From a virus: a stretch of DNA of 64,000 bases. The DNA lies in the IMG/VR virus record IMGVR_UViG_3300042894_006198, positions 1 to 64,000 of that record. The stretch is one strand, 5' to 3'. Of this stretch, positions 30,996 through 62,800 are shown piece by piece. Both the position numbers and the translations under genes were made by a program. Below the pieces are notes generated by a model. That model did no database searches, was not told where the DNA came from, and was given only the letters and a program-made list of their open reading frames with translations. The stretch's first letter is position 1. Each line of letters starts with the position of its first letter.

Positions 30996-31817
30996 ATGGA
31001 AAACAACCCACTAAAGCAGTATTTTAGAAGACCTGCTATACATATTCGTTTGCCAAGCAATCATCAATACACATCTGACGTGGTTGATTTTCCACCAACA
31101 GGAGAGTTACCTGTATACCCAATGACAGCAAATGATGAAATTACAGCACGTACACCTGATGCCTTATATAATGGTTCAGCAGTAGTTTCTATTGTCCAAA
31201 GCTGTGTTCCTTCTATTAAAAATCCTTGGGCTTTACTAAATTCTGACTTAGAAACCATACTAATTTCCATAAGAATTGCTACTAACGGTGATGAAATGGA
31301 TGTTGATACTACGTGCCCTAATTGTAAAAACTCTAATCGGTATGGTATCAACCTTAGTAAATTATTATCAACAATTACTATTGGCAATTATAACGAAGAA
31401 CTAGTAGTTGGAGATTTAGCAATAAAGTTTCGTTCTATTACCTATCAAGATAACAACACTGCAAGTGCTGAACAATTTGAAATACAACGTGGACTAGCAC
31501 AATTAGAAAACTTTGAAGATGGTGAGGCTAAGAATAAGGCAGCAAGTGAATTATTAGTACGTATGAACACACTTACACAGAAAATACTTGCTAGAAATAT
31601 TGAATATATTAGAACACCTGAAACATCAGTAGCTAATCAACCATTTATTTTAGACTTTTTACAGAATTGTGATAAAAAAATGTATGATTTAATACGTGAT
31701 CACAATATTGAGTTACGTGAAAGTAGTCAATCTAAGCCACTAAGGTTTAAGTGTGTTAGTTGTCAACATGAATATGATCAAACCATAACATTTAGTGTTA
31801 CCGATTTTTTCGAATGA
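30996..31817 (+). CDS. gp26: Baseplate hub protein gp26 family (273 aa)
   Basis: Role: T4 gp26-type base-plate protein needed for hub assembly. Seen: conserved opening LKQYFRRPAIHIRLPSNHQY and GELPVYPMTANDEITARTPD, then a four-cysteine pair CPNC (about 107-110) and CVSC (about 256-259) that probably binds zinc, and the ending ITFSVTDFFE. Length is close to relatives in marine phages and a little above T4. The stop overlaps the next start (ATGA), showing translational coupling. It is separated from the main baseplate operon by the gp55-gp47-gp46 block on the other strand. Confidence 0.85.
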   Translation: MENNPLKQYFRRPAIHIRLPSNHQYTSDVVDFPPTGELPVYPMTANDEITARTPDALYNGSAVVSIVQSCVPSIKNPWALLNSDLETILISIRIATNGDEMDVDTTCPNCKNSNRYGINLSKLLSTITIGNYNEELVVGDLAIKFRSITYQDNNTASAEQFEIQRGLAQLENFEDGEAKNKAASELLVRMNTLTQKILARNIEYIRTPETSVANQPFILDFLQNCDKKMYDLIRDHNIELRESSQSKPLRFKCVSCQHEYDQTITFSVTDFFE

Positions 31818-32041
31818 GGCTTCTCTATCTGTCTCAAGATGACATAGAGAAGCTAGTAAAAACCTACGAAGACGAAGTTACTACCATCAAACGCAATGCA
31901 TTAAAAGCTGCATGGTACATGCGTGGCTCATTATCATATGTTGATGCCATGAATCTTTCACCATCTGAGACTAGTATTATTAACAAGTTGATTGATGAAA
32001 ATCTAGAAGTTACTAAGAAAAGTGGATTACCATTCTTTTAA
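31814..32041 (+). CDS. Small baseplate-associated protein ending ETSIINKLIDENLEVTKKSG (75 aa)
   Basis: Seen: helical protein with KAAWYMRGSLSYVDAMNLSP, then INKLIDENLEVTKKSGLPFF at the end. The ending with Thr-Lys-Lys-Ser-Gly-Leu-Pro-Phe recurs in short proteins next to gp26 in T4-like phages. It overlaps gp26 by four bases (ATGA). Inference: an assembly partner or chaperone of the hub, in the place of T4 hub-assembly factors; identity with gp28 or gp51 is not supported by length. Two hairpins follow the stop codon. Confidence 0.75.
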   Translation: MRLLYLSQDDIEKLVKTYEDEVTTIKRNALKAAWYMRGSLSYVDAMNLSPSETSIINKLIDENLEVTKKSGLPFF

Positions 32042-32130
32042 GATGACCTAACGGTCATCTATTCGTGTACTAGCTTACGCTATCGCTACAGCTACGTACA
32101 CTCATTTTTTTCTATTATTATTTTTTTGCC
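32041..32130 (+). terminator. Tandem hairpins and T-run ending the gp26 unit
   Basis: Directly after the stop, AGATGACC-TAAC-GGTCATCT forms an 8-bp stem (32041-32060). A second stem then pairs GTGTACTAGC (32065-32074) with GCTA-C-GTACAC (32091-32101), one base bulged, followed by TCATTTTTTT and more T-rich sequence to 32127. The second hairpin plus T-run is a convincing plus-strand terminator. Confidence 0.82.
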
Positions 32131-32142
32131 TATTTCTTTTTT

Positions 32143-32184
32143 GCAAAAAGGTGGATAAATGTAAAGTTAATTGCATATATCCAC
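32143..32184 (-). terminator. Minus-strand terminator facing the gp46/nuclease unit
   Basis: On the minus strand GTGGATA (from 32184) pairs with TATCCAC (to 32151) around a 20-base loop and is followed by CTTTTTGC. It would stop transcripts arriving from the nuclease gene after crossing 32185-32618. Confidence 0.65.
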
Positions 32185-32618
32185 GATTTATAATCTTTCT
32201 TCCCTGCCTACTTGCGTAGAAGGTGCTCACTTCGTGTATTTTACTCAGGTAGGTTTGACTATGTCACCCCGAAACTTGTTAACAAGAAATACACCGCATA
32301 CACTGTAAAGTTAATAACCGCAGTGAGTTAGTTATTAACACAGTCTCGACCCTTTTCCACTATCATCATGATCGAGCACTTGGTAAAAAAATAGTATCTT
32401 TACCCCAACCTACTTTACAGTAGATCCAACTATTACGACAATAGAAACGTGATATACCTTGGGTATCCGTTTAAGCGTCCTTGTAACCATAATGGTTTTT
32501 CGGATAGTCTATTGAAGATGCTGTAGAACTCAGCTAAGGCATTGACCAACTTTCATCAGTTTACCTACGTTGCGTTACTAGGTCATGCAACCGTACCCAT
32601 TGTTCTATAAAACAGCCC
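32185..32618 (-). ncRNA. Gene-free, foldable 434-base stretch; candidate structured RNA
   Basis: No open frame of useful length or ribosome site was seen on either strand. Complementary pairs visible: GTTAATAAC/GTTATTAAC (32310-32318, 32331-32339), TATCCG/CGGATA (32464-32469, 32501-32506) enclosing AACCA/TGGTT (32485-32497), GGTAAA/TTTACC (32382-32404), CTACT/AGTAG (32410-32423), CTATT/AATAG (32430-32444), TGACC/GGTCA (32543-32585), CCTAC/GTAGG (32207-32253). A longer-range pair at 32257-32263 and 32339-32345 is complete with one G-U on the minus strand but has an A-C mismatch on the plus strand, favouring a minus-strand RNA. It could be a long 3' region of the nuclease transcript, a processed RNA, or just DNA-level structure. 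No tRNA, tmRNA or known family was recognised. Confidence 0.38.
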
Positions 32619-33131
32619 TTAGTTTGAGACCTGAGAATGTTTTTTGAATATACCTGAGTTGAGAGTGAAAAATGTGTCTAATTCTGAGATAATCCATACA
32701 CCGTAATCAGGACTTTTATATACCATATAACTTGGTACATCCCACTTTACAGTGTCTTGGACAGCAATGTAACGACCTTTATGATTAAATTTCATAAACA
32801 GCACGTTTAAGTCATGCTCGTCGCTTACATCTAATAGTTGTTGTAACCAACCATTCAATACTTTGCAATTAGTTAGTAGTTGATGAAAAGGAAAGTCTCC
32901 ATAGTTTTTGCATTCAATATTGAGCAATGGAAACGACACCCCAGGTATAATATCCCCCTTAAAGCTGCGTACCTGCCCTTCATGCAATACTTCTTTACGT
33001 CCCTTATTTGATCCACCAACATATGCGCCACTATTTGGAACACGAATAAAAGATTCATTATACCTATCACTTAAGTATTTTGCAATCTCTCGTTCAAAAC
33101 TACTTCCTTTAATTTTACTTGCTGATGGCAT
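32619..33131 (-). CDS. PD-(D/E)XK nuclease, Holliday-junction-resolvase-like (170 aa)
   Basis: Seen: KIKGSSFEREIAKYLSDRYN with Glu13, then a basic loop (NKGRKEVLHEGQVRSFKGD) with Asp60, and Glu73-x-Lys75 in LLNIECKNYG. This spacing E..D..ExK is the metal-binding pattern of PD-(D/E)XK nucleases, and the start resembles archaeal Hjc-like and phage resolvase-type proteins. Inference: resolves or trims branched DNA in recombination-dependent replication, fitting its place 16 bases after gp46. A TAGGGA ribosome site precedes the ATG. It could instead be a restriction-like or packaging-related nuclease; the fold call is more certain than the substrate. Confidence 0.75.
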   Translation of the reverse strand: MPSASKIKGSSFEREIAKYLSDRYNESFIRVPNSGAYVGGSNKGRKEVLHEGQVRSFKGDIIPGVSFPLLNIECKNYGDFPFHQLLTNCKVLNGWLQQLLDVSDEHDLNVLFMKFNHKGRYIAVQDTVKWDVPSYMVYKSPDYGVWIISELDTFFTLNSGIFKKHSQVSN

Positions 33132-33147
33132 AATCCCTACTTATACC

Positions 33148-35313
33148 CTATGCTGCCAAACTATTTTTTTCATTTGACAACTGATAACTTGTAAACCCAC
33201 CTTCTTTGACCACTTGTAGCACGTTAGTTACACGACTTACAAGCTCATCACGATGTGAGATTAACCAAACTGATTTGTCCCTGCGTCTGCCTAATTCTTT
33301 AAATAACATGACCGCATTTTCTACACCAACACTATCTAACCCATTATCAATCATTTCATCAACAAATAATAAGTTGATACCTTGGTATAAATTTTCCCAT
33401 ACATCCCTAAAAGCAAATGATAGGGATAGTATTAATCTTGTACTTTCACCACGACTAAAGTTACCATAACTTAGCTCACGACCTAATTCAGTAATTTCTA
33501 CCGATAAATCGTTTTGAAACTTCACACGATGTGGTAAACCCATCTTATCTAAATAATGACTCAAACGTGAATTCAAATAATTTAGATTTTGGTCAATAAT
33601 TTTCTTACGCAAAAAGCTTTTCTTATTGGTCAGTAAATCTAACAAATATTCTTGGTGCTTTAACATACGTGTTAAATCATTCAATTGATCATATGACACT
33701 ACCGCAATACTATTAGTCATCATGTCATTAATTTGCTCTGCATAAGGATCAACTTCTTCAAAACGCTTTTCTAACGCTTGTTCCAACTTTTCAACAGTGC
33801 TTTGATGCTTTAAAGCTGCTTCTAAAGTACTGTATATGGTAGTAGGCTTATCACCTAACTCACCTACCTCTAACTTTACGTTGTCATATTGTTCGTTTAG
33901 TGCATCAATATCATTGTCATGAAGTGTTGTAGTTTGTTGAAAATCTTGCTGTAATTTCAATGTTTTTTCAGATAAAGAGTCAATAGTTGACTTATGATTT
34001 AACGCTTCTTCTAATGTTTTATAGTGTACAGCAGGAATTGTTGGTATATTACCAATATCTTTAAGTATAGTATTATATTCTTTTGCCTGATTTTCTGCTG
34101 TACTTAATTCAGTTTTCAGTTCAGCTAAACGATCTTCTTTGTTTTTTAGCGTAAGCTTATGTGTTTGATCATGATAATCTTGACCACATGCATAGCATTT
34201 ATGATCATGTAACTTCACTAATTCTTCGTTAATAGTTGCAATTTCTTTATTCAACCGTGTACAAGTAGCATTGCTAGCATCAAATAATTTCTTAGTATTA
34301 TCTCTTGTAAGAGTTTTATCCTTAATTTCAGAAATAATTTTTAAGTTTTTAATTTCGATATTAATATCAATATTTTTTAACGCATTCATCTGCGTAACTA
34401 TTGCTTCTTTATTTTTCTTGTAAGTTATTACCGCATCATTATATCGTTTGTTTAATTTTGCTGTTTCCGCAGTAAAATGAGTTTTGGCATTGGTTAGCTT
34501 AGTATAATTTTCATTATACTTTGATAGTGTGCGATGTGAGGCAAGTTCTTGTTGAATATCAATTTTGTATAATTCAACTAATTGATTCGTATAATTGGCA
34601 ACATCCTCATCTTTTTTGGTAATCCATAGTGCTTGTCTACGCTTAAGATTATCAATTTGTTCTTGTATTTTGGTGTTTGCGTCTTGCAACCCACGTATTT
34701 TAAATTCTTCTTGTTGAATTTGATCTTTTACTGAACGATTTAATTCTTTAATACTTTCTGCTTTTTCTGAAAGTATAGTAATACCAAGTAATTGTTCAAT
34801 AATTTCACGTTGGTCTGCTGCTTTAAGTGCTAAAAATGGTTCATTATAAGTGTTTAAGGCAACAGTATGCTTAAACATCTCAGAAGAAATTCCAACAACG
34901 GATTCAATTGCAAGCTGTGTTTCACGACTATCTCCTTGACTTTCATTTTCATCTTCTGAGAATTCTTGCTCAGCATTATCAACATAAAATTTAAGTATAT
35001 TTGGTTTACGACCACGTTCAATACGATATTCTGTGCCATTTACCTCAAAGTCTAAAGTAACTAACATATGTTTACCGTTAGTCAGGTTAATTAAATTATC
35101 TCTTTTAATATTATTAAGTACGCTACCATATAATACATAGCACAATGCTTGAATAATCGTTGATTTACCTGTGCCATTACGTGCACCATCACCGCCTAAG
35201 TCACGATTTTCACCAAGAATAAGTGTTAAATCGTTGCGAGCAAAGTTAATATACTGTGATACTGCACCAACAGATAAGAAGTTTTTAATCGATAGTTGTT
35301 TTATAATTATCAT
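33148..35313 (-). CDS. gp46: Recombination endonuclease subunit gp46 (Rad50/SbcC-like, 721 aa)
   Basis: Role: ATPase of the gp46-gp47 complex that resects DNA ends for recombination-dependent replication. Seen: Walker A region in LILGENRDLGG then NGTGKST (Lys50), long coiled coil ~185-620 broken at a zinc hook Cys373-x2-Cys376 (CYACGQ), signature NFSRGESTRLILSLSFAF before Walker B LLFVDEMIDNG (Asp652, Glu653), and a His switch in WLISHRDEL. It is longer than T4 gp46 (560 aa), mainly in the coiled coil. The first codons overlap the end of gp47 (ATGA), implying coupled translation. Confidence 0.95.
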   Translation of the reverse strand: MIIIKQLSIKNFLSVGAVSQYINFARNDLTLILGENRDLGGDGARNGTGKSTIIQALCYVLYGSVLNNIKRDNLINLTNGKHMLVTLDFEVNGTEYRIERGRKPNILKFYVDNAEQEFSEDENESQGDSRETQLAIESVVGISSEMFKHTVALNTYNEPFLALKAADQREIIEQLLGITILSEKAESIKELNRSVKDQIQQEEFKIRGLQDANTKIQEQIDNLKRRQALWITKKDEDVANYTNQLVELYKIDIQQELASHRTLSKYNENYTKLTNAKTHFTAETAKLNKRYNDAVITYKKNKEAIVTQMNALKNIDINIEIKNLKIISEIKDKTLTRDNTKKLFDASNATCTRLNKEIATINEELVKLHDHKCYACGQDYHDQTHKLTLKNKEDRLAELKTELSTAENQAKEYNTILKDIGNIPTIPAVHYKTLEEALNHKSTIDSLSEKTLKLQQDFQQTTTLHDNDIDALNEQYDNVKLEVGELGDKPTTIYSTLEAALKHQSTVEKLEQALEKRFEEVDPYAEQINDMMTNSIAVVSYDQLNDLTRMLKHQEYLLDLLTNKKSFLRKKIIDQNLNYLNSRLSHYLDKMGLPHRVKFQNDLSVEITELGRELSYGNFSRGESTRLILSLSFAFRDVWENLYQGINLLFVDEMIDNGLDSVGVENAVMLFKELGRRRDKSVWLISHRDELVSRVTNVLQVVKEGGFTSYQLSNEKNSLAA

Positions 35314-36326
35314 AGATTTTTATAGATATTGAGCAATAATTGCTTGTCAAACTTACCCTCATCAAGTTGTTCAATTTGGGATAGTACTATAGCATCAACG
35401 GATTCAAATTGCAAATTGGCTTCAAAATTATTGTCAGTTTCAATATCCACTCGTTGTGGAATCATAGTCATTTCACGCAATTTATATTCTTTCATAATTG
35501 TTTCCTTTATGCTGCTAGACTCCTCATAACTTATATCTGTATCAATAGTGATGCGTAAACACCCATTTTGAATCAGTAATGAGTCAGGGTTTTCTAAAAT
35601 TTGTGTTAAATTATATGTACGAAATTTAGGTTGATTAGGCCACGAATGATAAGTTGGTTTATCGCCCCATGCTAGTATCATCATGCCACGATCATCATCA
35701 TTTACATCACTATAATTATGCGGAAATGCGTTACCAATATATGTGATGTTTCCTTTTGTTTGGCGTTTATGAAAATGTCCTGTAAAAACATGGTCAAAAT
35801 GTTGTAGTTGATTACGATTGATTTCACCATGATCAGGCATTTCAACCATAGCATTCATATAGAATGATGGTAATTCAAAGTGACCAAACAAGTATTGTGC
35901 GTTTAACTTTTGTAATTTTTTATAATCTTCACCAATAAGCCATGGTGCAATGATGCAATCCCCATCAACAATCCAATCGTTACAAATAATAATTCGATCA
36001 AGGTGTTTTGCCCATTCCATACTCTGTACATCACGACGATCTCTATAATACAAGTCATGATTACCCACGATGAAATATATTTTTTCAAAGTTTTCATTGA
36101 GTTTTTCTAGTGCCCGTAAACTATAATTTTGTGTTAGTACATTAATTGTTGCACGATTATGGTTCCAATCACCTAGAAAAAAACATGTTTCACACCCATG
36201 TTTTTTAGCGGTTGCTATAAACCATTCGACAAATTGTAAGCAGTCTTCGTTATGTTGTATACTATTGTTCTTTAGACCAAAGTGTATATCGGTAAAAACT
36301 GCTGCTTTTTTAAATAAATTAGTCAT
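35310..36326 (-). CDS. gp47: Recombination nuclease subunit gp47 (Mre11/SbcD-like, 338 aa)
   Basis: Role: metal-dependent nuclease partner of gp46. Seen: phosphoesterase motifs in order: FTDIHFGLKN (Asp12, His14), FFLGDWNHNR, YFIVGNHDLYY, LFGHFELP, and VFTGHFHKRQ. Length matches T4 gp47 (339 aa). It lies 39 bases after gp55 and overlaps gp46 by four bases, giving the order 55-47-46 also seen in T4 relatives. Confidence 0.95.
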   Translation of the reverse strand: MTNLFKKAAVFTDIHFGLKNNSIQHNEDCLQFVEWFIATAKKHGCETCFFLGDWNHNRATINVLTQNYSLRALEKLNENFEKIYFIVGNHDLYYRDRRDVQSMEWAKHLDRIIICNDWIVDGDCIIAPWLIGEDYKKLQKLNAQYLFGHFELPSFYMNAMVEMPDHGEINRNQLQHFDHVFTGHFHKRQTKGNITYIGNAFPHNYSDVNDDDRGMMILAWGDKPTYHSWPNQPKFRTYNLTQILENPDSLLIQNGCLRITIDTDISYEESSSIKETIMKEYKLREMTMIPQRVDIETDNNFEANLQFESVDAIVLSQIEQLDEGKFDKQLLLNIYKNL

Positions 36327-36365
36327 TCAAAGAATGTACTGTAGCTTGTATGACAAGTCAAAAAA

Positions 36366-37253
36366 TTAGGATTCCTCAGCAAATTGACGTGACCAACTTG
36401 GATTTAACCCGTTAGCCTCTAGTATGTCATCACGTATACCTTGATTTTTCTTTTCTGTGTTCAATACTCGACAGAAAGAATTAGTAATGGCTGCGGTATA
36501 ATACGCAAAAGGATTGCTAGATTTAGCTTCGTTAAATCGTAAACCAACATAAGTCAACTGTAAAATTGCTGCGCCACGCATTTCATCATTATAGGTATAA
36601 CCACGCCAATTAAACCTCATGGCATATTTTTCACACAGCATAAGATACATTTTTGCTAATTTGTTAGTAATTTGCCCTTTATCTTTGTCAAAGTGCCCTG
36701 TATAGATATCTCCCTGCCAATGTGATTTACCAACACAATACATTTGGTTACCTGCTTCAGCATAGCGAAAATGTTGGAATGGTGGAAAATTAACACGAAC
36801 ATGACTCATATCGTTCATGCCCATTTCTTTGTTTAGTTTAGGATCATCTAAATCCTCGTAAGTTACTTCTTCATCCAAATCAAATTCAAATAATTCACGT
36901 GCTGATTTCTTTTTGTCTACTTTTCTAGCTTGTTTTGGTGCAAGTGGTATGTGATCCCATGTCATCACTCTGAAAACTAAATCAATATGGTCAATAGTGC
37001 TTGGGTCAATTTTAGTACCACTTTCAACTCCTAAACGATACGCACGATTTTCTTTTGCTTTTTGGATAACTTCAGGACGTAATGCAATGGCTAAGCTATT
37101 TTCAAGTGATACACCTTCTTCATAATCAATAATGTAATCATATTGATGGTCTTCAGGTTCTCGGTAACTGCAGTAAGTATTTTTGCTTAGGTGTATTTCT
37201 TTTAGTATGTCCTTATTATTAAGGTAGTTAAGGGGTTTTTTAATGACTGTCAT
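36366..37253 (-). CDS. gp55: Late-transcription sigma factor gp55
   Basis: Role: phage sigma factor that directs host RNA polymerase to TATAAATA-type late promoters together with the sliding clamp. Seen: C-terminal core KLAKMYLMLCEKYAMRFNWR, then GYTYNDEMRGAAILQLTYVG and FNEAKSSNPFAYYTAAITNS, ending IRDDILEANGLNPSWSRQ, which is the pattern of cyanophage-type gp55. An N-terminal extension of about 130 residues precedes it (T4 gp55 has 185 residues in total). The start at 37253 (MTVIKKPLNYL) was chosen as the first ATG; a GTG 36 bases upstream (37289) would add 12 residues. It is first gene of the minus-strand unit, divergent from the baseplate operon it should activate. Confidence 0.9.
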   Translation of the reverse strand: MTVIKKPLNYLNNKDILKEIHLSKNTYCSYREPEDHQYDYIIDYEEGVSLENSLAIALRPEVIQKAKENRAYRLGVESGTKIDPSTIDHIDLVFRVMTWDHIPLAPKQARKVDKKKSARELFEFDLDEEVTYEDLDDPKLNKEMGMNDMSHVRVNFPPFQHFRYAEAGNQMYCVGKSHWQGDIYTGHFDKDKGQITNKLAKMYLMLCEKYAMRFNWRGYTYNDEMRGAAILQLTYVGLRFNEAKSSNPFAYYTAAITNSFCRVLNTEKKNQGIRDDILEANGLNPSWSRQFAEES

Positions 37254-37385
37254 AGGGTTCCAAATGTTATAATACCTGTATTGTTGCACAGTTACAACAA
37301 AAAATCAAGAAATTTGGATTTATACAGGTGGATAGAGAATTATTTACTGCTATGAATTATAGATAAAAATACGACTTTTTAAAAT

Positions 37386-50825: not shown

Positions 50826-53800
50826 ATGGTAACTAAGGTACGCACAATCGATTTTTTGCCTGAAATATTCAGGACTGAGACTAACAGACAATTTTTGTCT
50901 GCTACACTTGACCAATTGACGCAGCAAAAGAATGTATCTGCCGTACAGGGATATATTGGCGAGAAATTTGGTTATGGTATTAGTAGAAATGACAAGTATG
51001 TTGTTGAGCCTGATAAAACTAGAACTGATTATCAGTTAGAACCTGCAGTTATCTTTTTAAAAGATGATACGCAAACACCACAAGACTTCATCACTTATCC
51101 TGGCATCGTCGATGCACTGCGACAACCCAATAATGTTACCTTAAACCCACAATCATTGTTTGAACAAGACAGTTACAGTTGGGAATCTTTTATTAACTAT
51201 GACAAATTATTAAACTATCAGCAGTACTATTGGTTACCGCTTGGTCCTGACACCGTGTTAGTATCTACTGATACTGTATATAATCGCAGAACCTATACCG
51301 TTATTGATTCAAATGATGGTTATCGCATTTCAACGTTTGCTCAAAAAAACCCAATCATCACGTTATTACGTGGTGGAACATATAAGTTTGTAGTCGATGG
51401 CAATGCGCCATTTTGGATTCAAGGTGTCCCAGGCACCAACGGAACCGAACCCCTATACCCAAATATAAGCACAAGAGATGTACTAGGTGTTACAAATAAT
51501 GGTACGGCAAGTGGTGAAATAACCTTTACAGTACCTGCAAGAGATGCACAATCGCAGTATATATTGCCTGGTAATCATACGGTGGATATTATTTGCACAA
51601 GTAATTATGATGACATAAATGGTAAAACTTTAGCAGATATTGGTGGTTCAATTGATGGTGTTACTGATTTGAATGGTAAAACTATTATGTTTTACGGTCC
51701 ATCTAGTGTGGCTAATCAAATTAAGTACTATCGTATTGAATATGATACAAACAATAACTTAACTGCAACAACAACACCTGATGCTAATTATACAAGTGTT
51801 TCTACCATTGGCGTAGTTGATGTAAGTGATATTTACGCAGGTATGGTTATTTCAGGTAGTGGTATACCATCAGGTACTATAGTAGAAAACATTATCAATT
51901 CAAATTTATACTTAAGCAATGCTATTACTGTAACTACATCAACTACATTAACATTTAGCAATAATCGTTTTCCTGTGCCACCATCAGTGTCAGTAGGCTA
52001 TAACGCAGCACCATATGCTGCATATGATCAAAATTATATTGATCCACTACAAAGTTCATATACACCCGTAGAAATTGGTTTTGATCAAACAATTGTATTA
52101 CGCTTGGTAGATATTGGCAATATTCCTACTATGGAAACTATTACTGCTAACTTAGGTACTGTATATCAAGCAAGAAAGTTCTTTAGAAATTTAGCAGGTC
52201 AAATTGAGTTAATACCATATCTTAGCGCACAATTAGATAGACTATACTATCAAAACGCTAATGATCCAAATAGTGTTGGTATTATTGAATTGATTGAAAG
52301 TAACGCTGATGCTTATATCTACATTAGTGATATTCTCGGTAAAACAAATTATACAAGTCCTAATAAAGTACAATTTACTAATGGTTTGAAAATTAGTTTT
52401 GAAGGTAATGTAGTACCAAGTTCATACGAGGGTAATGAGTATTATGTAGAAGGTGTAGGAACAGCCATTCAATTGATTCCTGTAGGTGATTATGCAACAC
52501 CTGAGATCTATACTGATCCAATTTTTGTACCTTATGACATGGAACCTTACGATACAACAGGATATGATGTTGTATTGAATCAACCACTTGATGCGGATTA
52601 TTTAACAATTAGTAGATTATCACGTGATCGCAATGCATGGTCACGTAGCAATCGTTGGTTTCATTATGATGTGTTACAAGCTACCTACAATTATACAAAG
52701 AGTGCACGTTCATTAGAAGATTTACAAAGTACAACAAATAGAGCAAAGCGTCCTATTATAGAATTTGTGCCTAATTTAAAATTATTTGATAGTGGTACAA
52801 AATCATTAGGTTCAGTAGACTTTTTTGATACTGCTACTACAGATTTATTATCTACTGTAGAGGGCATTGTACCTACATTACCAACTATAGCTAATTTTTC
52901 ATCAGCAACAGAGGCTATTGTAACCATTAATAATACACAATTGGTTGGTACTATTAATCCATCTTTACCTGTTACATTAATCGAAGGACAATCTGTTGTA
53001 TTACAAATACCTAGCACATGGCCTACAGAATGGCAAGTTTTAGATAATCAAATATATTATATCTATGACATAAACACGTCTAGCCCAACTGTTACTACTT
53101 TTAAATTATCAAGTGTTTCTACTATTGATACACCTGATCCTCTTGATACAAATGGTTTTACAGCACCATCAGTAGGCACAGCCTATGCAAGTTTTGGTGA
53201 GTATATTATTGATGGTGAAAGTGTATTTGATGGTGCTAGAATTATTGTAAGTAATGATACTGATGCTAGTGTACGAAGTAAAGTATATTATGCAACCTTT
53301 GTTCAAATCGATACAGCGGGAACTGTTGTAGCAAGTTTTGTTCCTGATACAGATGTTACAGTGACTAATTTAAGTCAAGCAGTTATTACACGAGGTGACG
53401 TATCTTATAATCATCTTGGACGAACATTTGTTTATGAAGATGTGTTGTTTAATAATGCAGGTGGATGGCAACAATGTCAACTAAAGACAGGACCTAACCA
53501 AGCACCCCTATTTGATATATTAAATGAAAATGGTGTAAGTTTTAGTAATACGTCATCATATCCTGCTACTACTTTTGCAGGAACAAAGTTATTTTCATAT
53601 ACAGAAAATAGTTCTAATCCTGATGATCCTGTATTAGGTTTTCCATTAGAATACACAAGTTTAGAAAATACTAGTGATATTAATTTCACAGTAAACCTTA
53701 ACGTAGATACATTTAGTTATACAAGTGGTTCAACTACTGTTACAGAATTAATCAATACAGGCTATGTTAATCAATATGAAATCATTGATGTACCAACCAA

Positions 53801-56800
53801 GCGTATTGGATGGGTAAATTCTATAGAGCAAAGTGTACAATATCAAGTATTTTCATTTACAACATCAGCTCTTAATACAGCAAACAATATTACAACGGTA
53901 AGATGTGATATTCCTGCTCAACCTGACACAGGATGGAATCCTGTTAAAGTATATCTAAATAATCGTTACTTAAAACCAAATGAATTTACCTACACAGTGA
54001 CTTCATCAGAAACTATTGTGTATATACCTAATGGATTTAATGATTTACCTGTTGTAGTGGAACTGCTTAGTGCAGAGGTTAGTCCTACAGCATACTATAC
54101 AGTACCTACTAACCTAGAAAATAATCCATTCAATGTCAACCCAACAACAATTGATTTAGGTGGTATTAGAAATCATTGGATTAGTATATGCGAAAATAGT
54201 GGATTAGTAACGGGTAGCTTTGTTGGTAATAATAATAGTCGTGATTTACCAAATTTAGATCCATATGGAAATAAGATTATTCAAAACAGTGCGGCAATGT
54301 TGTTGCCTGGGTTGTTTTTGCGTAAAGCAGGGTATAATATATTAGATGCGTTAAATTTTAATTCTAATGAATATACAAATTATAAACAAGTTATTGTTGA
54401 TACTGCTTATCAGTTAGATTTTGGTCCTTACGACAGCCCATCGACCATATTAGATACTATAGTACAGCGTTTAGTACAAGCTAAAGCAGATACTGCTCCT
54501 TTCTTTTGGAGCGATATGTATTTTAGTGGCGATCCTTATATCACTAACACTTATCGTTTCCGTAATCAAGCAAGCACTGCTACCTATACATTAAGTAGAA
54601 TCTATGATTTTACAAGTGCAAATTACTATGGTTTAGGCATTTATGTAACACGTATCATTGATGGTATTGCACGTGAGATACAATTATTGCGTGATGTAAA
54701 TTGGGTAACTAGTACAACATCACCTAGCGTAACCATAACCTATAGTTTTTTAGCAGGTGATGTTGTTACCGTTAAAGAATATAATCAAACTTATGGTACA
54801 TTCTGTCCTAATACACCATCAAAATTAGGCACCTATCCTGCTTTTGTACCACAGGTATTGCTTGATAATACATACCTTACGCCAACGTATTTTATTGTAG
54901 GTCATGATGGTAGTTATAATAAGTTATATGGTACATATATTAATGGTCGTTTAACAGACCCACGTGACATTGCACTGTTTGAGTTTGAAAATCGTGTATG
55001 GAATAATATTAAAGTAACACAAGATATTCCTATTGTTTATGCCGATGTAGCCCCAGGCAAATTCCGCACCACGTCATATTCTGAAGAAGAAATTTTACAG
55101 ATTAAAAATCCATCATTCTTAAATTGGATTGGAAAGAATAGATTAGATTATAGAACTAATTTCTACCGTTCAAATAACGCATTTTCATATAATTATCGTG
55201 GCAGCACAATGAGTATTGATGATAGTATCATTACTCAAGGCTATTGGCGTGGTATATACAATTGGCTATATGATACAGATACGCCAAACATTACACCATG
55301 GAAAATGTTAGGCTTTGCAGTACGTCCTACATGGTGGCTAAGTTATTATGGTGATGCACCATATACTAGTGATAATACTACATTGTGGACAGATTTATCA
55401 AATGGTTTTGTTTGGAATAATGGTGATAGTTATACTATTACAAAATATGTTCGCCCACAATTATTAAGCATTATACCTGTTGATAGTATGGGCAATCTAG
55501 TGCCACCATTAGAATTAGTTGTTAATTTCTATAATACGCTTGATTTTAATAAAAGTTGGTTACCAGGCGATGACTCCCCAACCGAAGCAAGTTATGAAAA
55601 GAGTAGCACTTATCCATTTGATTTAATGCGTTTGTTAGTATTGACAAAACCTGCACAATTTTTTAATTTAAATGTTGATCGTGATTTATATAAGTTTGAT
55701 GTTGAGTTAGGGCAATGGTTATACAATAACCGTTATCATATTAACCCTAATGATATTGTTGTATATGGTGATGGTACGCCAAAGCATAGTTATATTAATT
55801 GGGTAGTAGATTATTTAAATCAGCGTGGTATATCATCAACCTCTGAGGTACAAGTATCTTTACAAAATTTAGATGTGCGTTTGGTATATCGTGTTGGTGG
55901 ATTTACTGCTAAAAAGTTTTTAAGTTTTCTAGTAGAAAAAGCAAGCACTAATAGTGCAAACACAGGATTATTGATTCCTGATGATAGTTATAACATATTA
56001 TTGTATGATAACGTGCCATTTGATAAGATTACTTGGTCTAGTGTGGTTGTACAAAAAACTGAAAAAGGATATTCAGTTTGGGGTAATAGTTTAACACAAA
56101 GTTTCTTTACTTGTGCTCAACCCTTAAACAACAATTACAAAGAAGTTGTTAGTTATGGTGATTATCGTGTCAGCGTAAGTACAGGATTTAGTAAAACACA
56201 AACTTACATTGTGCCTTATGGTACAGAATTTTATAGTTTAGAAGGTGTAGCTGAATTTTTAGTGCGTTATGGCGCACACTTAGCCAATCAAGGTATGTTG
56301 TTTGTTAACATATTTGATGGGGTAGAATATAATTGGACACAAATGGTTGCTGAGTTTTTATATTGGCAATCACAAAAATGGTCAGTGGGTAGTTTAATTA
56401 ATCTTAACCCTAATAGCCAACGTTTAAGTATTAACAAAGATAATTTTATTGTACAACCATTAACTTTACAACAAAGTAATTTTGTACTTGATCAAAACAT
56501 GTCGCCTATCAAACCAACGAATATGATGATTAATCGTGATGGCACTGCTTTTGAGTTACAAGTAAAAAATGTTGGTGATACTTTAGCTTATTCTGTTTTC
56601 AACATGTCAAATATTGAACATGCTATTGTGTTTGATAATATTACATTGTTTAATGACGTTATCTATAACGTATCAATTGGTTTACGTCAAGAACGTATTT
56701 TAATGAAAGGATATGTTACTGCTGAGTGGAATGGCTATGTTGATGCACAAGGATTTTTATTAAATCAAAATAATGTACAAGAATGGCAATCAAATATCAA

Positions 56801-59800
56801 GTATTCAAAGGGACAAATTGTTACTTATAAAGGACAATATTGGGTTGCATCTGAAATTATTGAACCTAACGCAAACTTTAATCAAGAACAATGGATAAAG
56901 AGTGATTATGAATCTGTACAAACAGGATTATTAGCTAACCCTAGCACTGAAGCTGCGGAAGCATTGTCTTTTTACAATACCAACGTTGCTGCATTAAATG
57001 AAGATACTGATTTATTATCATTTAGTTTAATTGGTTTTAGACCACGTGAGTACATGGCAGCAGCAGATTTAAGCAATATTAGCCAAGTTAATATCTATAA
57101 AAACTTTATTAAACAAAAAGGCACTAATATTATTGCTAATACGTTCAAACGTGCTGAATTTGCACAAGGACAAATTGACTACGATATTTACGAAAATTGG
57201 GCAATTAAGAGTGGTGAATTTGGCGCAGTAAACAGTAGTAATTTCGTTGAAACATTATTAATTGAGGCAGACTTAAACAGTAACCCAACGATTATAGGAT
57301 TTACTGATAGTAACATTACCTCGGTTAATGGTGCTCAACAAAATACAAACATCAATGAATTAATTAATTGGGACAGAAAACCTTCTACTGCTAATTTCTT
57401 GCCACCTATGATATCAAATTATACGGTGCAGCAGGGTATACCCACAGCAGGTTATGTTAATTATGATGATGTTGAAATTACTTCATATACTTACGAAGGT
57501 TTAAATGATTTAACAACCACTGTACAAAATATGTACTATGGTGATTATATATGGTTGGCTGATTATTTAAGTACATGGAATGTAAGCACACCATTAAGTG
57601 TTGGCGCAGTAGTTGTATTATTACAAAATAATTTAAACAGTACATGCACGTTAACTTTTGATAAGCCACACGGTTTAGTAAAGAATCAACGTTTCAGCGT
57701 AGTTGGTTTTAATAGCGAAGTAGATGGATATTATATAGTAAACACGGTATTATCACTTAATTCAGTACTCATTAATTTAATACTGCCAAACAATATTCGT
57801 ACCATTGAAGGTGTAGGTATTGCTTTTAAGTTTCAGAATCATCGTGTTACACAGCCAAGTGCAGCTAATAATTTCCCTATTGCAGGTAATGAGTTTACTA
57901 GAAAGAAAATTTGGGCAGATGAAAACGGTCCTGAGCCTGATAAACAGTGGGCAGTATGGGAAAGTGTTCCCGTATTTCAACTTACCACATTAACAAGCAC
58001 TGCTAGTAGTGGACAAACAGGCGCAGTTGCCTATAATTCTACTGTAGGCTCAGTGGTTGCTTATGCAGGTTATGTTCGTGTATTCCCATTAATTGGTTCA
58101 CCTTATAATCTACTATCATCTTCTAGTGTAACAGCTATTGCTGTGGCAGGAAGTTATATTTTTACAGTAAGTGGCACAACCCTAAGAATTTATAATGCAC
58201 CAACAACTACAGCAGTACAAACAATAACGTTAAGTAATACATGTACAAGTATTGACACAAGTGCAACAGGAACTATTGTATATGTTGGTAGCCCAAGCAC
58301 GAATAATGTTTACCAATATGTTAACACAGGTGCATCTTGGGTAGCAGGTGCAACAATTACTACACCTAGCGCAAGTGGCAGTGTAGGTGCTGTATTAGGG
58401 TTTGGTACATCTGTTACATGTAGTAATCAAGGTAATAAGTTATTTGTAGGCGCACCAACGTCAACTATTAGTGGTATTACACAAGCAGGTGCTGTATATG
58501 CGTTTGATTATACAGGCAGTGCAGTAAATTTACAACAAACTATAGTCAACCCTGCACCACATCAAGGTGGGTTATTTGGTAGAAGTGTTTCTACTTTCCA
58601 ATATGGTAGTGATTTTATAATTGGTGCACCATTTAATTTACAAACTGTTGATGGTATTAATAACGTAGAGGGCGCAGTATATCGTTATACAAGTCCTGCA
58701 CAACGTTATGGTACAATAAGCGGTGTAGTATCAGCAACTTATCCATTTAGTGGTACCTTATACATTGATAACGATACAATTACTATTACTTCAGCAGCTA
58801 ATTTAGCAGGTATTGTGTCACAAATTAATGCAGGATTAACGGGTTCAGGTCGCACTGCGCTAGCATCATATAGTGGTTCAACGTTAACGATTGCGGTAGA
58901 TCCTGACTTAGTGGATACACCACTTAATTTAATTGACATTAGTAGTAACAGTGTGGCTACACTAACTGCTTTAGGTTTGACACCCTATGTGTTAACACAA
59001 ACAATTTACGAACCTTACAAAACAAATACATCACAATTTGGTTATTTGGTTGCGATGAATGAGCTTAATAGTATAGCTATTTCTGCACCTACAGCAACCA
59101 AACATGATTTAACTACATTTGATTTTAGTGATGATTATGCTAATAATGACACTATATTTGATTGGGGTGCTACTACATTTATTGATCAGTGGCCTTTATT
59201 TGGTGAAGTTTGTGTATACGATTATCTTCCTGCTGCAAATGAAAACATATTAAACACAGGTAAGTATGTTTTTGCAGAATATGCTAATGATCCAACATAC
59301 AACATTGCTAATTATGGTTTACAACCACAATATGGTAACGGTGGATTATCATTTAATAACAGTGTTATTACTGTAACTAGCCCAAATTGGGGTACACCTG
59401 ATGTTGGTCGTGTAACACAATTTACAAATAGTAATAGACAAACATGGAACGTTATTCGTGCTCCATTGGCTGCCGTTGATATTAATAAGTTACAGTTTAT
59501 TGAAATATACGATACTATTGACAATCAAACATTAGATTATCTTGATTATATCGATCCAATACAAGGGAAAATGTTTGGTGCTGTAGAAAGTAATATAGAT
59601 TTTATTACAACAAAAGATCCTGCAGGATATGGCATTAACAAACCTGCTTGGACAGAAGATATGGTAGGTCGTATTTGGTTTGATCCAAGTGAAATAAGAA
59701 TGGTTGATACACATCAAAGCGCATATGGTACACCAACCATTCCTGATAGTGTATACAATTCTAAATATTGGGCACAACCATTTGTAGGTAGCTTACCACG

Positions 59801-62800
59801 TGTATATCGTTGGACAGAAAGTACGGTAGATCCTCTTAACTACAGCGGCCCAGGCACCCCTCTCGATTTTGAAACATACGTATCAGTTACCGTACAAGAT
59901 AATAATATTAATAGTTTAGTTACGTTGTATTATTTTTGGGTAGAAAATAATCCCATTATTGATACTAAGATAGGCAAAACACTTAATACATCAACAATAG
60001 CATCGTATATTCTTAACCCATTGGGGTCAGGTATATCTTACTTAGCACCATTAGGTACAAATTCTGTAGCATTGTTTAACAGCACTAATTATGTTCGTGC
60101 TAATAATAGTGCGCTACATATTGGATATTCAAGCACTGTCAATTCAGATCAAAAACATATTGAGTTTAATTTAATCCGTGAGGGCGATCCATTTGATTTC
60201 TTAAATGGTGTGCCAAACACACGTCGAGTAGGTCAAGAAGAACCAAAAGGGTTATATCTTAAGTTTATTAATAGCTTTGCAGGGCGTAATATTTTAGGAC
60301 AAACTGTACCTGATACTAATTTGCCATTGTTGGTACGTTATGGAACAAGTAATATCTATCGTCAAAGTATGTTCCGCAATCGTGAATTAGCCCTACAAAA
60401 TTATATTGATTATGTCAACAGCGTATTGATGTTGTACCCAATTACTGAAAGTCGTGTTATACCATTTTTAAATGAGGTTGGCTTAACATGGGATACAAGA
60501 GATTTTTGGTCTTATGAAAATTATTGGGTAAATGGTTACAGCAATGCTACTAAAGCACAAATTCAAGTACAAAGTGTGCCTGAATTAGCCTCAGTCAATG
60601 CACGTGAAGGTTTGATTGCTTATGTACAAACATCTGTAACTAGTGGGAATGGCACATATTATAGTTATACGGATGGTGAATGGGTACTAATTGGTATAGA
60701 AAATGGAACTATACAGTTTTCATCAACTTTATATACTAACACAGATTTAGATGAAACTTCCATGCCAATTCGTTACATTGTTCGTGCTATTAATGAACAA
60801 ATCTTTATTGGTGATTTACAAATTGAGCGTAATCGTTCATTAACATTAATGTTTAATTACATCATGAGCGAAGCACAACAACGTAAGAACTATTTGCCAT
60901 GGTTGAATAAAACATCGTTAATCGACGTTTCACACACTATTCGACAGCTTATACCTTATGAAAAGTTCCAACGTGATAATCAAGATTTCTTAAGTGGTTG
61001 GTTAAATGAAGTAAAACCATATCACGTAGTTATTAAAGATTTTGCTTTCCGTTATGCGGGGCAAGATACTTTTGAGGGTGATATTACAGATTTTGATGTT
61101 CCATCACGTTATGTCAACTCAATGAATCAATACGAAAGTCCAATATTGGTTTATGAATTAACGCAAACACAAGAAAATGAATACTTACCTACTAACCCAA
61201 TATGGACAACAAGCCCTTATGTAAATTGGTATAACAATTATGGTCTTAGTATTGACTCAAGTGAATTAGAAAATTTAGCTATTGCACAGTTACGATTCTT
61301 TGTTGGACGTGATGCAACAAGTATATACATTAGTAATGCTTATGGAATGCCTGCAATTGGGTATATACAAATAAATGATGAAATTATTGGTTATAACTTT
61401 ATTGATTATTATCGTGGGCGTTTGGCAGGGTTGAGTCGTGCAAGATTTGGTACGGAGATTGCGACACATAATCCTGGGGCGGACGTGGTATGTACGTTTG
61501 ACCCTGTTACAGTGATTGAAACAGGACGAGCATATGCTAACCCACCAACTATTGATGTCGTTATTGATACTGCAGTATTTCCTGAGCCACGTGAGCAAGC
61601 CATATTAACACCGATTATGGCTAATGATCGTTTAATTGGCATACAAGTAAACGATGGTGGATCAGGTTATGGTCAACAACCTGAAATTATTATACAACCT
61701 GCTTTTGAAGAAACATTTGCCGCCACAGCATTTAATACAGGTACAAATCGTGTAACCTTAACATCATCAACAAGCTTTATCAGTGGCGATTGTGTTCGTT
61801 ATCGTGTTGAAGCAGGTAGTACACCTCCTATTGGGTTAACAGATGGTGCTTATTACTATGTTCGTGTAGACACAGCATCTAATAGTTTATACTTGTTTTA
61901 TAACAAAGCAGCAGCAATTGCTAGACGAGGAGATGTTAATTACGATGATGATCGTGTTATCATGTATGGTGGTGCGGTAGGTAATGGTCATGTGTTTGGA
62001 CAAACAGCACGTGCAGTGGCATTTACAACAAGTCGCCCAACACGTGAAATTAAAACAACAATTAAATTAGATCGTACAAGCTATCGTAGTACCATATCTT
62101 CATGGGATGGTTCCAACACTGCTTATGCAGGACCTTTCACTGATCCATTGAATATAAGTTCTTCATTATTTTTAGCAAGTGGTGAGAATTATGGTTTAAT
62201 CAGTAATAGCAATATTACCATACCAACGACATTGCCTTCTACAATTTCCGTTACTACAACCACAGATCCCACTGTGTTTAAGTCTAATCAAGTAGTTGCG
62301 CTAACTGCAACGTCAGTATGGGAACCTGCTACATATGGTAATGGGCAAACCATTGTTACTTATAATACAGCAACTTCACCATTTTCATCATTTGCCATTG
62401 TAGATAATCAAGGATTAAACTTTGGTGGTGGTGCAGCAGCATTACGTGGTGCAGCTATAAGTTTTGAAAGTGATGGTAATCCTGATTATGATTTACTTGG
62501 TACACCACAATGGAATGGTAATAATTTAGCTAATACGAGTAACGTATATTGGAAGAGTATTTCTAGTATTACATCAGCAGCTTTAGCTACTGTTACAACA
62601 ACCACTGATCATAATTTAGTTAATTGGCAAAAAGTATACCTTGCAAATATCACAACAACACCAACAAGTGGTAATGTTATTAATAATAAAACATTTTATG
62701 CTAATCGTTTATCTAACAATGCTTTTTACTTGTATTCAGCTAATACTAATAGTACAGGATTAACAGCTAATGGTAATTACACAACAGGTAATATTATTAA

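Follow-up and report, generated by a model that had tools for sequence, protein, structure and literature searches.

Comparative sequence analysis of the window (the whole 64,000-nt stretch of viral DNA that was analysed) confirmed a conserved structured RNA, as judged from base-pair covariation, encoded on the minus strand of its one long gene-free gap and carrying an intrinsic terminator at its end. The analysis showed, from sequence comparison, the conserved fold, the strand and the terminator, the lack of a match to a known RNA family, the lack of a conserved open reading frame (ORF), and RNAs in the same slot of other T4-like jumbo phages. The last of these had not been foreseen in the preliminary description of this DNA; structured RNAs fill the slot across jumbo phages, including cultured ones. 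The findings add families of structured RNA that Rfam lacks and that occupy one fixed position in the genomes of jumbo phages.

The gap and the RNA of the window

The gap had been described as the only long gene-free stretch, and this was borne out. When ORFs of at least 75 aa were counted, positions 32042-32618 (577 nt) were the window's sole ORF-free stretch of more than 302 nt. Seemingly ORF-free regions at 50.8-61.3 kb were discarded as an artefact, as they lie inside one giant ORF that is still open at the window end; this single plus-strand ORF (50826-63998) encodes at least 4391 aa and runs past the window. The gap sequence is present in one copy in the 158-kb virus record. The order of the slot is gp55-gp47-gp46-nuclease, then the RNA, then the small ORF and the baseplate hub gene (Table 1), and the order of the hub gene and the 75-aa gene is syntenic in relatives. 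The plus-strand hairpin at 32065-32101 was also predicted in alignment A2.

A search of IMG/VR with the nuclease yielded 80 loci. The close relatives with distinct sequence were L003, L004 and L005, while L002 equalled the window over the gap region, and a further relative, L212, was obtained from pattern scans. The resulting window-type alignment (A4) comprised five distinct sequences and covered the whole RNA. RNAalifold predicted 118 pairs in A4, with 95.4% of the cells paired compared to 90.9% in shuffled alignments. Covariation in homologues had been proposed as a check on the RNA, and the check was passed, with double-sided changes in 24 pairs compared to 9.7 in the shuffles, a level reached by none of 500 shuffles. 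When the partners were slid by 1-3 columns, 38-41% were paired; this control flatters the structure, as the structure was derived from the same five sequences. More weight attaches to the double changes, and the set of five sequences is small. Column-shuffled A4 alignments folded far worse (z of -7.7 for the minus strand and -5.1 for the plus strand). Furthermore, in each of the ten pairwise comparisons the RNA (identity 0.72-0.87) was more conserved than four-fold degenerate sites in the neighbouring genes (0.51-0.71), by a narrow margin for L003-L005.

A folding energy better than that of shuffled sequence had also been proposed as a check, and this result was weak. For 32185-32618, z was -0.67 on the plus strand and -1.05 on the minus strand, with 14 of 100 shuffles folding equally well, in a test that is less powerful than covariation. 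For the longer interval 32120-32640, which takes in the terminator, z was -2.28 on the minus strand. The single-sequence energy is unremarkable and alone would leave a gap RNA undecided.

Among the pairs predicted from both strands of A4, 21 were G-U and two were A-C in the minus-strand orientation, and this asymmetry assigns the RNA to the minus strand. The earlier suggestion of a minus-strand RNA that enters on the nuclease side and stops at 32143-32184 is supported by the covariation, the G-U/A-C test and the conserved terminator. The left-side terminator was found on the minus strand in all five window-type sequences, with a stem at 32153-32186 (paired 76.9% in A4) followed by a T tract at 32146-32150. 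The boundaries of the RNA shift from the interval first given for it, 32185-32618, to approximately 32610-32145; a start at 32185 cuts off the terminator hairpin. The 5′ end is uncertain, and the 3′ end is the terminator.

The nested stems and hairpins of the preliminary description are present, and most are part of the conserved A4 fold, a multi-helix structure of ~465 nt without a secured pseudoknot. The long-range pairing GTAGGTT/AACCTAC was perfect in the window and L003 and was retained with a G-U in L004 and L005; it is not secured, because L212 carries a mismatch. Double-sided changes were present in three pairs of helix 14, in four of the five pairs of helix 11 and in two of the ten pairs of helix 12. 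Helices 2-5 of the 5′ domain showed little covariation because they are highly conserved and mostly invariant.

No conserved ORF was found across the relatives, as neither the strand nor the frame of the longest ORF is constant among them. No conserved promoter of the window-family RNA was found either, and the ATAAATA late motif is absent ahead of it. This motif, similar to the late promoter of T4, is enriched ahead of genes, preceding eight of 28 window genes although the 64 kb contain only 11 copies (e.g., 27827-, 30964-, 37387+, 46352+ and 46809+); the window also codes for a gp55-like sigma factor. The nuclease gene carries repeats of a CTnAGGTCT motif at its 3′ end (~32614-32635, minus strand), directly before the RNA, and the repeats are also present in the window-type phages L003-L005 and L212.

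Table 1. Features of the gap and its flanking genes (window coordinates; helices numbered as in alignment A4).
Feature	Position	Strand	Basis or remark
Baseplate hub gene (30996-31817) and 75-aa gene (31814-32041), convergent neighbours	30996-32041	+	PF12322, phrog_150
Hairpins and T run, would end the plus-strand operon	32041-32111	+	Read from sequence
Structured noncoding RNA (predicted), ~465 nt (465-470)	~32610 to ~32145	-	A4 covariation, G-U/A-C asymmetry, conservation above four-fold sites
Intrinsic terminator, TCGTGGATATATG/TTTACATTTATCC then ACCTTTTTG	32144-32186	-	All five window-type sequences
3′ domain, GTATGC/GTGAGC and GTGTATTT/AAATACAC, closing two hairpins	32225-32301	-	Helices 13-16, A4
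Two hairpins of the 3′ domain, CTTGT/ACAAG and GGGGTGAC/GTCAAACC	Within 32225-32301	-	
Stem, ACTGT/ACAGT and GTTAATAACT/GGTTATTAAC	32302-32344	-	Helices 11 and 12
Hairpin, CTCGATC/GGTCGAG	32345-32376	-	Helix 10; 100% paired, double-sided changes in three pairs
Hairpin, GATCTACT/AGTAGGTT	32407-32426	-	Helix 9; three doubly changed pairs
Central domain, TCTTCAATAGA/TCTATTGTCGT around AACGGA/TCACGTT	32435-32518	-	Helices 6-8
5′ domain hairpins, GTTGC/GCAAC, AGGTA/TGCCT with ACTGAT/GTTGGT, AGCTG/CAGCA	32519-32591	-	Helices 2-5
PDDEXK nuclease/RusA-like resolvase family gene, upstream neighbour of the RNA	32619-33131	-	PF24608, phrog_244
gp46-like SbcC, gp47-like SbcD and gp55-like late sigma factor genes, on the strand of the RNA	33148-37289	-	phrog_77, phrog_100, phrog_12791

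RNAs in the same slot of other phages

A different RNA occupied the slot, on the strand of the nuclease, in every one of the remaining 76 nuclease relatives (L006-L081), loci that are not all independent. The RNA of this sister family contains near-invariant sequence blocks, and one 19-letter pattern from it was present in more than 120 IMG/VR contigs among the matches listed. The sister alignment (A1) comprised 48 diverse members, excluding L222 and L223, and supported 66 pairs, with pairing kept at 96.4% and double changes in 43 pairs, compared to 31 in shuffles; the covariation score was 0.448, compared to 0.171 in shuffles. The structure includes a covarying 6-bp pseudoknot, in which the loop of a hairpin pairs with a strand further downstream; its pair types are numerous (TTATCT/AGATAA, TTGTCT/AGACAA, TCACTT/AAGTGA and others). 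It had first been flagged by a purpose-written, tree-based substitution-reshuffling test, which gave 18 significant pairs on an alignment that still contained the chance GTDB sequences L222 and L223. The strand test gave 172 G-U and 40 A-C pairs. In columns 35-38/78-81 of A1, helix 1 pairs CCUCCUU, which is like the anti-Shine-Dalgarno end of 16S rRNA, with CUGGAG, and is almost invariant.

Several candidates were rejected. The conserved GACACCAAGTCA upstream of the sister RNAs was considered as a promoter and reads as C-terminal codons of the nuclease. Two GTDB contigs matching a 19-letter pattern were dropped as bacterial carriers because their similarity barely extended beyond the pattern and several chance matches are expected in 257 Gb. 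Other chance matches to patterns were dropped as well (most of L201-L221, and L272).

Isolated phages were reached only through a baseplate hub protein search of phage records and through gene order; no DNA similarity of these isolates to the window or sister RNA was found. The order of hub, small ORF, 660-836-nt gap, EndoVII and gp46 was present in Serratia phage BF, Cronobacter phage GAP32, E. coli phage 121Q, Pectobacterium phage CBB, Xanthomonas phage XbC2, Salmonella phage SE_PL and the Erwinia phages Kaldavass and Hallingskeid. The gaps are mutually homologous (64-95% identity), and part of the locus in Klebsiella phage fENko-Kae01 shares this homology; the family comprises nine isolated jumbo phages. 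The predicted RNA of ~480-540 nt lies between a conserved TATAAT and an intrinsic terminator with a covarying stem; the TATAAT is present in all eight isolates whose aligned stretch extends that far (that of Hallingskeid stops short). The structure contained 99 pairs, with pairing kept at 98.4% and double changes in 40 pairs, compared to 22 in shuffles, and included an H-type pseudoknot (GUUGC/GCAAC, GUUAC/GUAAC and GUUGU/ACAAC). The strands were not separated by fold energy (z of -10.0 and -12.6), and the G-U to A-C ratio was 18:6. The RNA and the adjacent EndoVII gene lie on different strands and are divergent. Tiny hypothetical proteins are annotated in or beside the conserved RNA region in Kaldavass (L281:4571-5214) and Hallingskeid (L282:4688-5192), and are probably not genes.

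In the corresponding slot of PA5oct, a perfect sigma-70 promoter (TTGACA-N17-TATAAT, L273 ~1799-1827) precedes an ORF-poor candidate stretch of ~1 kb. A metagenomic pair (L259 and L260), 72% identical over 588 nt and with 19 doubly changed pairs, may represent a third family, a candidate gap RNA for which two sequences make the weaker case. The gap is not kept everywhere; in RaK2 it is short, and Vibrio phage 2.275.O and Agrobacterium phage Atu_ph07 carry other genes in the slot.

The flanking genes and the RNA direction that define the slot were found in the window, L003-L005, L212, the sister loci and the isolates. The slot RNAs have covariation-supported structures and intrinsic terminators, the latter checked in the window and isolate families. 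The families have in common their position, their orientation where tested (from the nuclease side toward the hub), a comparable size and heavy structure. No links between the families were found by sequence profiles or covariance models; the window RNA did not match the sister profile, and the best score of the sister covariance model R1 was 5.6 bits (E of 0.44 in 5 kb). As the family models do not detect one another, deep homology is argued from position and orientation only.

Proposed role and alternative explanations

We favour, as rather probable, a stand-alone minus-strand noncoding RNA that runs from ~32610 to the terminator at ~32145, is stable and acts in trans; the trans function is suggested by its size, its elaborate structure and analogy. 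Such an RNA would accumulate during infection and act as RNA or as an RNA-protein particle, in the manner of a scaffold or a sequestering decoy, and its role would not be that of a message, a leader or a simple terminator. As no conserved promoter of its own was identified in window-type phages, it would probably arise there by read-through from the gp46-nuclease operon. In the enterobacterial isolates, the putative start would have the conserved TATAAT directly ahead of it.

The same arrangement could reflect a cis-acting 3′ UTR of the gp46-nuclease operon, which would protect or terminate the messenger and shield it from convergent transcription without any separate RNA function. Consistent with this, the RNA lies 3′ of the nuclease gene on its strand in the window and sister families, and in the window family it ends in a terminator and has no separate promoter that was found. 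However, the opposite strand of EndoVII and the RNA's own TATAAT in the isolates do not fit a 3′ UTR, and stability or termination would call for much less than ~470 nt of conserved multi-helix structure that includes invariant loops and a pseudoknot; we regard the 3′ UTR as unlikely. A DNA-level element (such as an origin of replication, or a signal for recombination or packaging) with hairpins formed as single-stranded DNA would suit the adjoining recombination and replication genes. This is very improbable, given that the excess of G-U over A-C (21:2, 172:40 and 18:6) is expected of RNA and not of DNA, and that the terminators and the promoter are on one strand only. We give hardly any credence to the view that the gap is ordinary intergenic DNA, with stems formed by chance or small genes that escaped notice. 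While the single-sequence energy is near that of shuffles, short ORFs of 38-45 aa are present and tiny ORFs are annotated here in some isolates, chance is rejected by the comparative tests, and the coding explanation was rejected because the longest open frame changes strand and frame among relatives.

For the wider claim, it is reasonable to infer that the slot families are orthologous and do the same job, a weaker conclusion than the RNA itself. Our proposal is that an ancestral RNA gene, sited between the recombination block and the baseplate hub, is common to jumbo T4-like phages; it would have diverged into families past linking by sequence and covariance searches, while one function of enough importance to persist in most lineages was kept. 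We offer this proposal tentatively, as having a little less than an even chance. If true, the shared slot RNA would be a previously unrecognised core RNA component of jumbo T4-like phages. The main rival to this claim is that unrelated structured RNAs settled separately in a permissive gap between convergent operons, their position reflecting tolerance of insertion and not ancestry or function. The absence of cross-detection by profiles or covariance models is as this rival would have it, as is the filling of the slot by other genes in some relatives. However, all 76 nuclease relatives retain an RNA, the RNAs tested agree in size and in pointing toward the hub, and structured RNAs diverge fast enough to evade detection, so that separate settlement seems to us somewhat doubtful.

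Comparison with known phage RNAs

The preliminary description had recognised no known RNA family, and the searches agreed: Rfam 15, at the gathering score and at E up to 10, returned only noise for the window, ten loci of the sister family and three from isolates. No tRNA or tmRNA was found by ARAGORN or Rfam in the 64-kb window or in 14 relative loci. Resemblances to a group I intron, RNase P and tmRNA, noted by eye, were dropped because Rfam gave them no support. In the open-licence literature, no paper on an RNA at this locus was found.

The slot RNAs are closest in kind to ROOL (Rumen-Originating, Ornate, Large) and GOLLD and are members of neither. Both are large phage RNAs of elaborate structure, conserved and with pseudoknots in ROOL, without an assigned function (PMC12286853), and they are among the most puzzling RNAs known. 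Like ROOL, the slot RNAs are phage-encoded, hundreds of nucleotides long and of elaborate conserved structure. The pseudoknots of ROOL and GOLLD have a counterpart in the sister and isolate families, whereas the window family has no secured one. Unlike ROOL, the window RNA matches no Rfam model, is not near tRNA genes and is shorter than the studied 659-nt ROOL, and the slot RNAs are fixed beside recombination and baseplate genes. GOLLD is often longer than 800 nt and near tRNAs, whereas the window RNA is ~465 nt with no tRNA in 64 kb, and the slot RNAs have no Rfam match.

Long noncoding RNAs are also described in lytic phages. The gp139-gp140 region of ICP1 is a ~1-kb ORF-less gap with a transcript of ~800 nt, the most abundant of this phage (PMC7567579). 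Unlike the slot RNAs, it adjoins the lysis cluster, and the region gave no match to the slot-RNA profiles or to models R1 and R3. Phage K (Kayvirus) encodes the long noncoding RNAs lnc001 and lnc002, one of which has its own early promoter and the highest read count (PMC9241854); compared by description, these adjoin tRNA genes, unlike the window RNA. The ICP1 and phage K examples indicate that such phage RNAs can be highly expressed.

Because one slot family is present in laboratory-grown phages (E. coli 121Q, and also GAP32, CBB and BF), its expression, structure and deletion phenotype are directly testable. The findings suggest that intergenic gaps of jumbo phages, sometimes annotated with tiny ORFs as in Kaldavass and Hallingskeid, hide conserved RNAs. 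A separate observation was made in Sinorhizobium phage Phosso, in which a 1014-nt gap without annotated genes (L286:6733-7746) adjoins resolvase and RNase HI genes.
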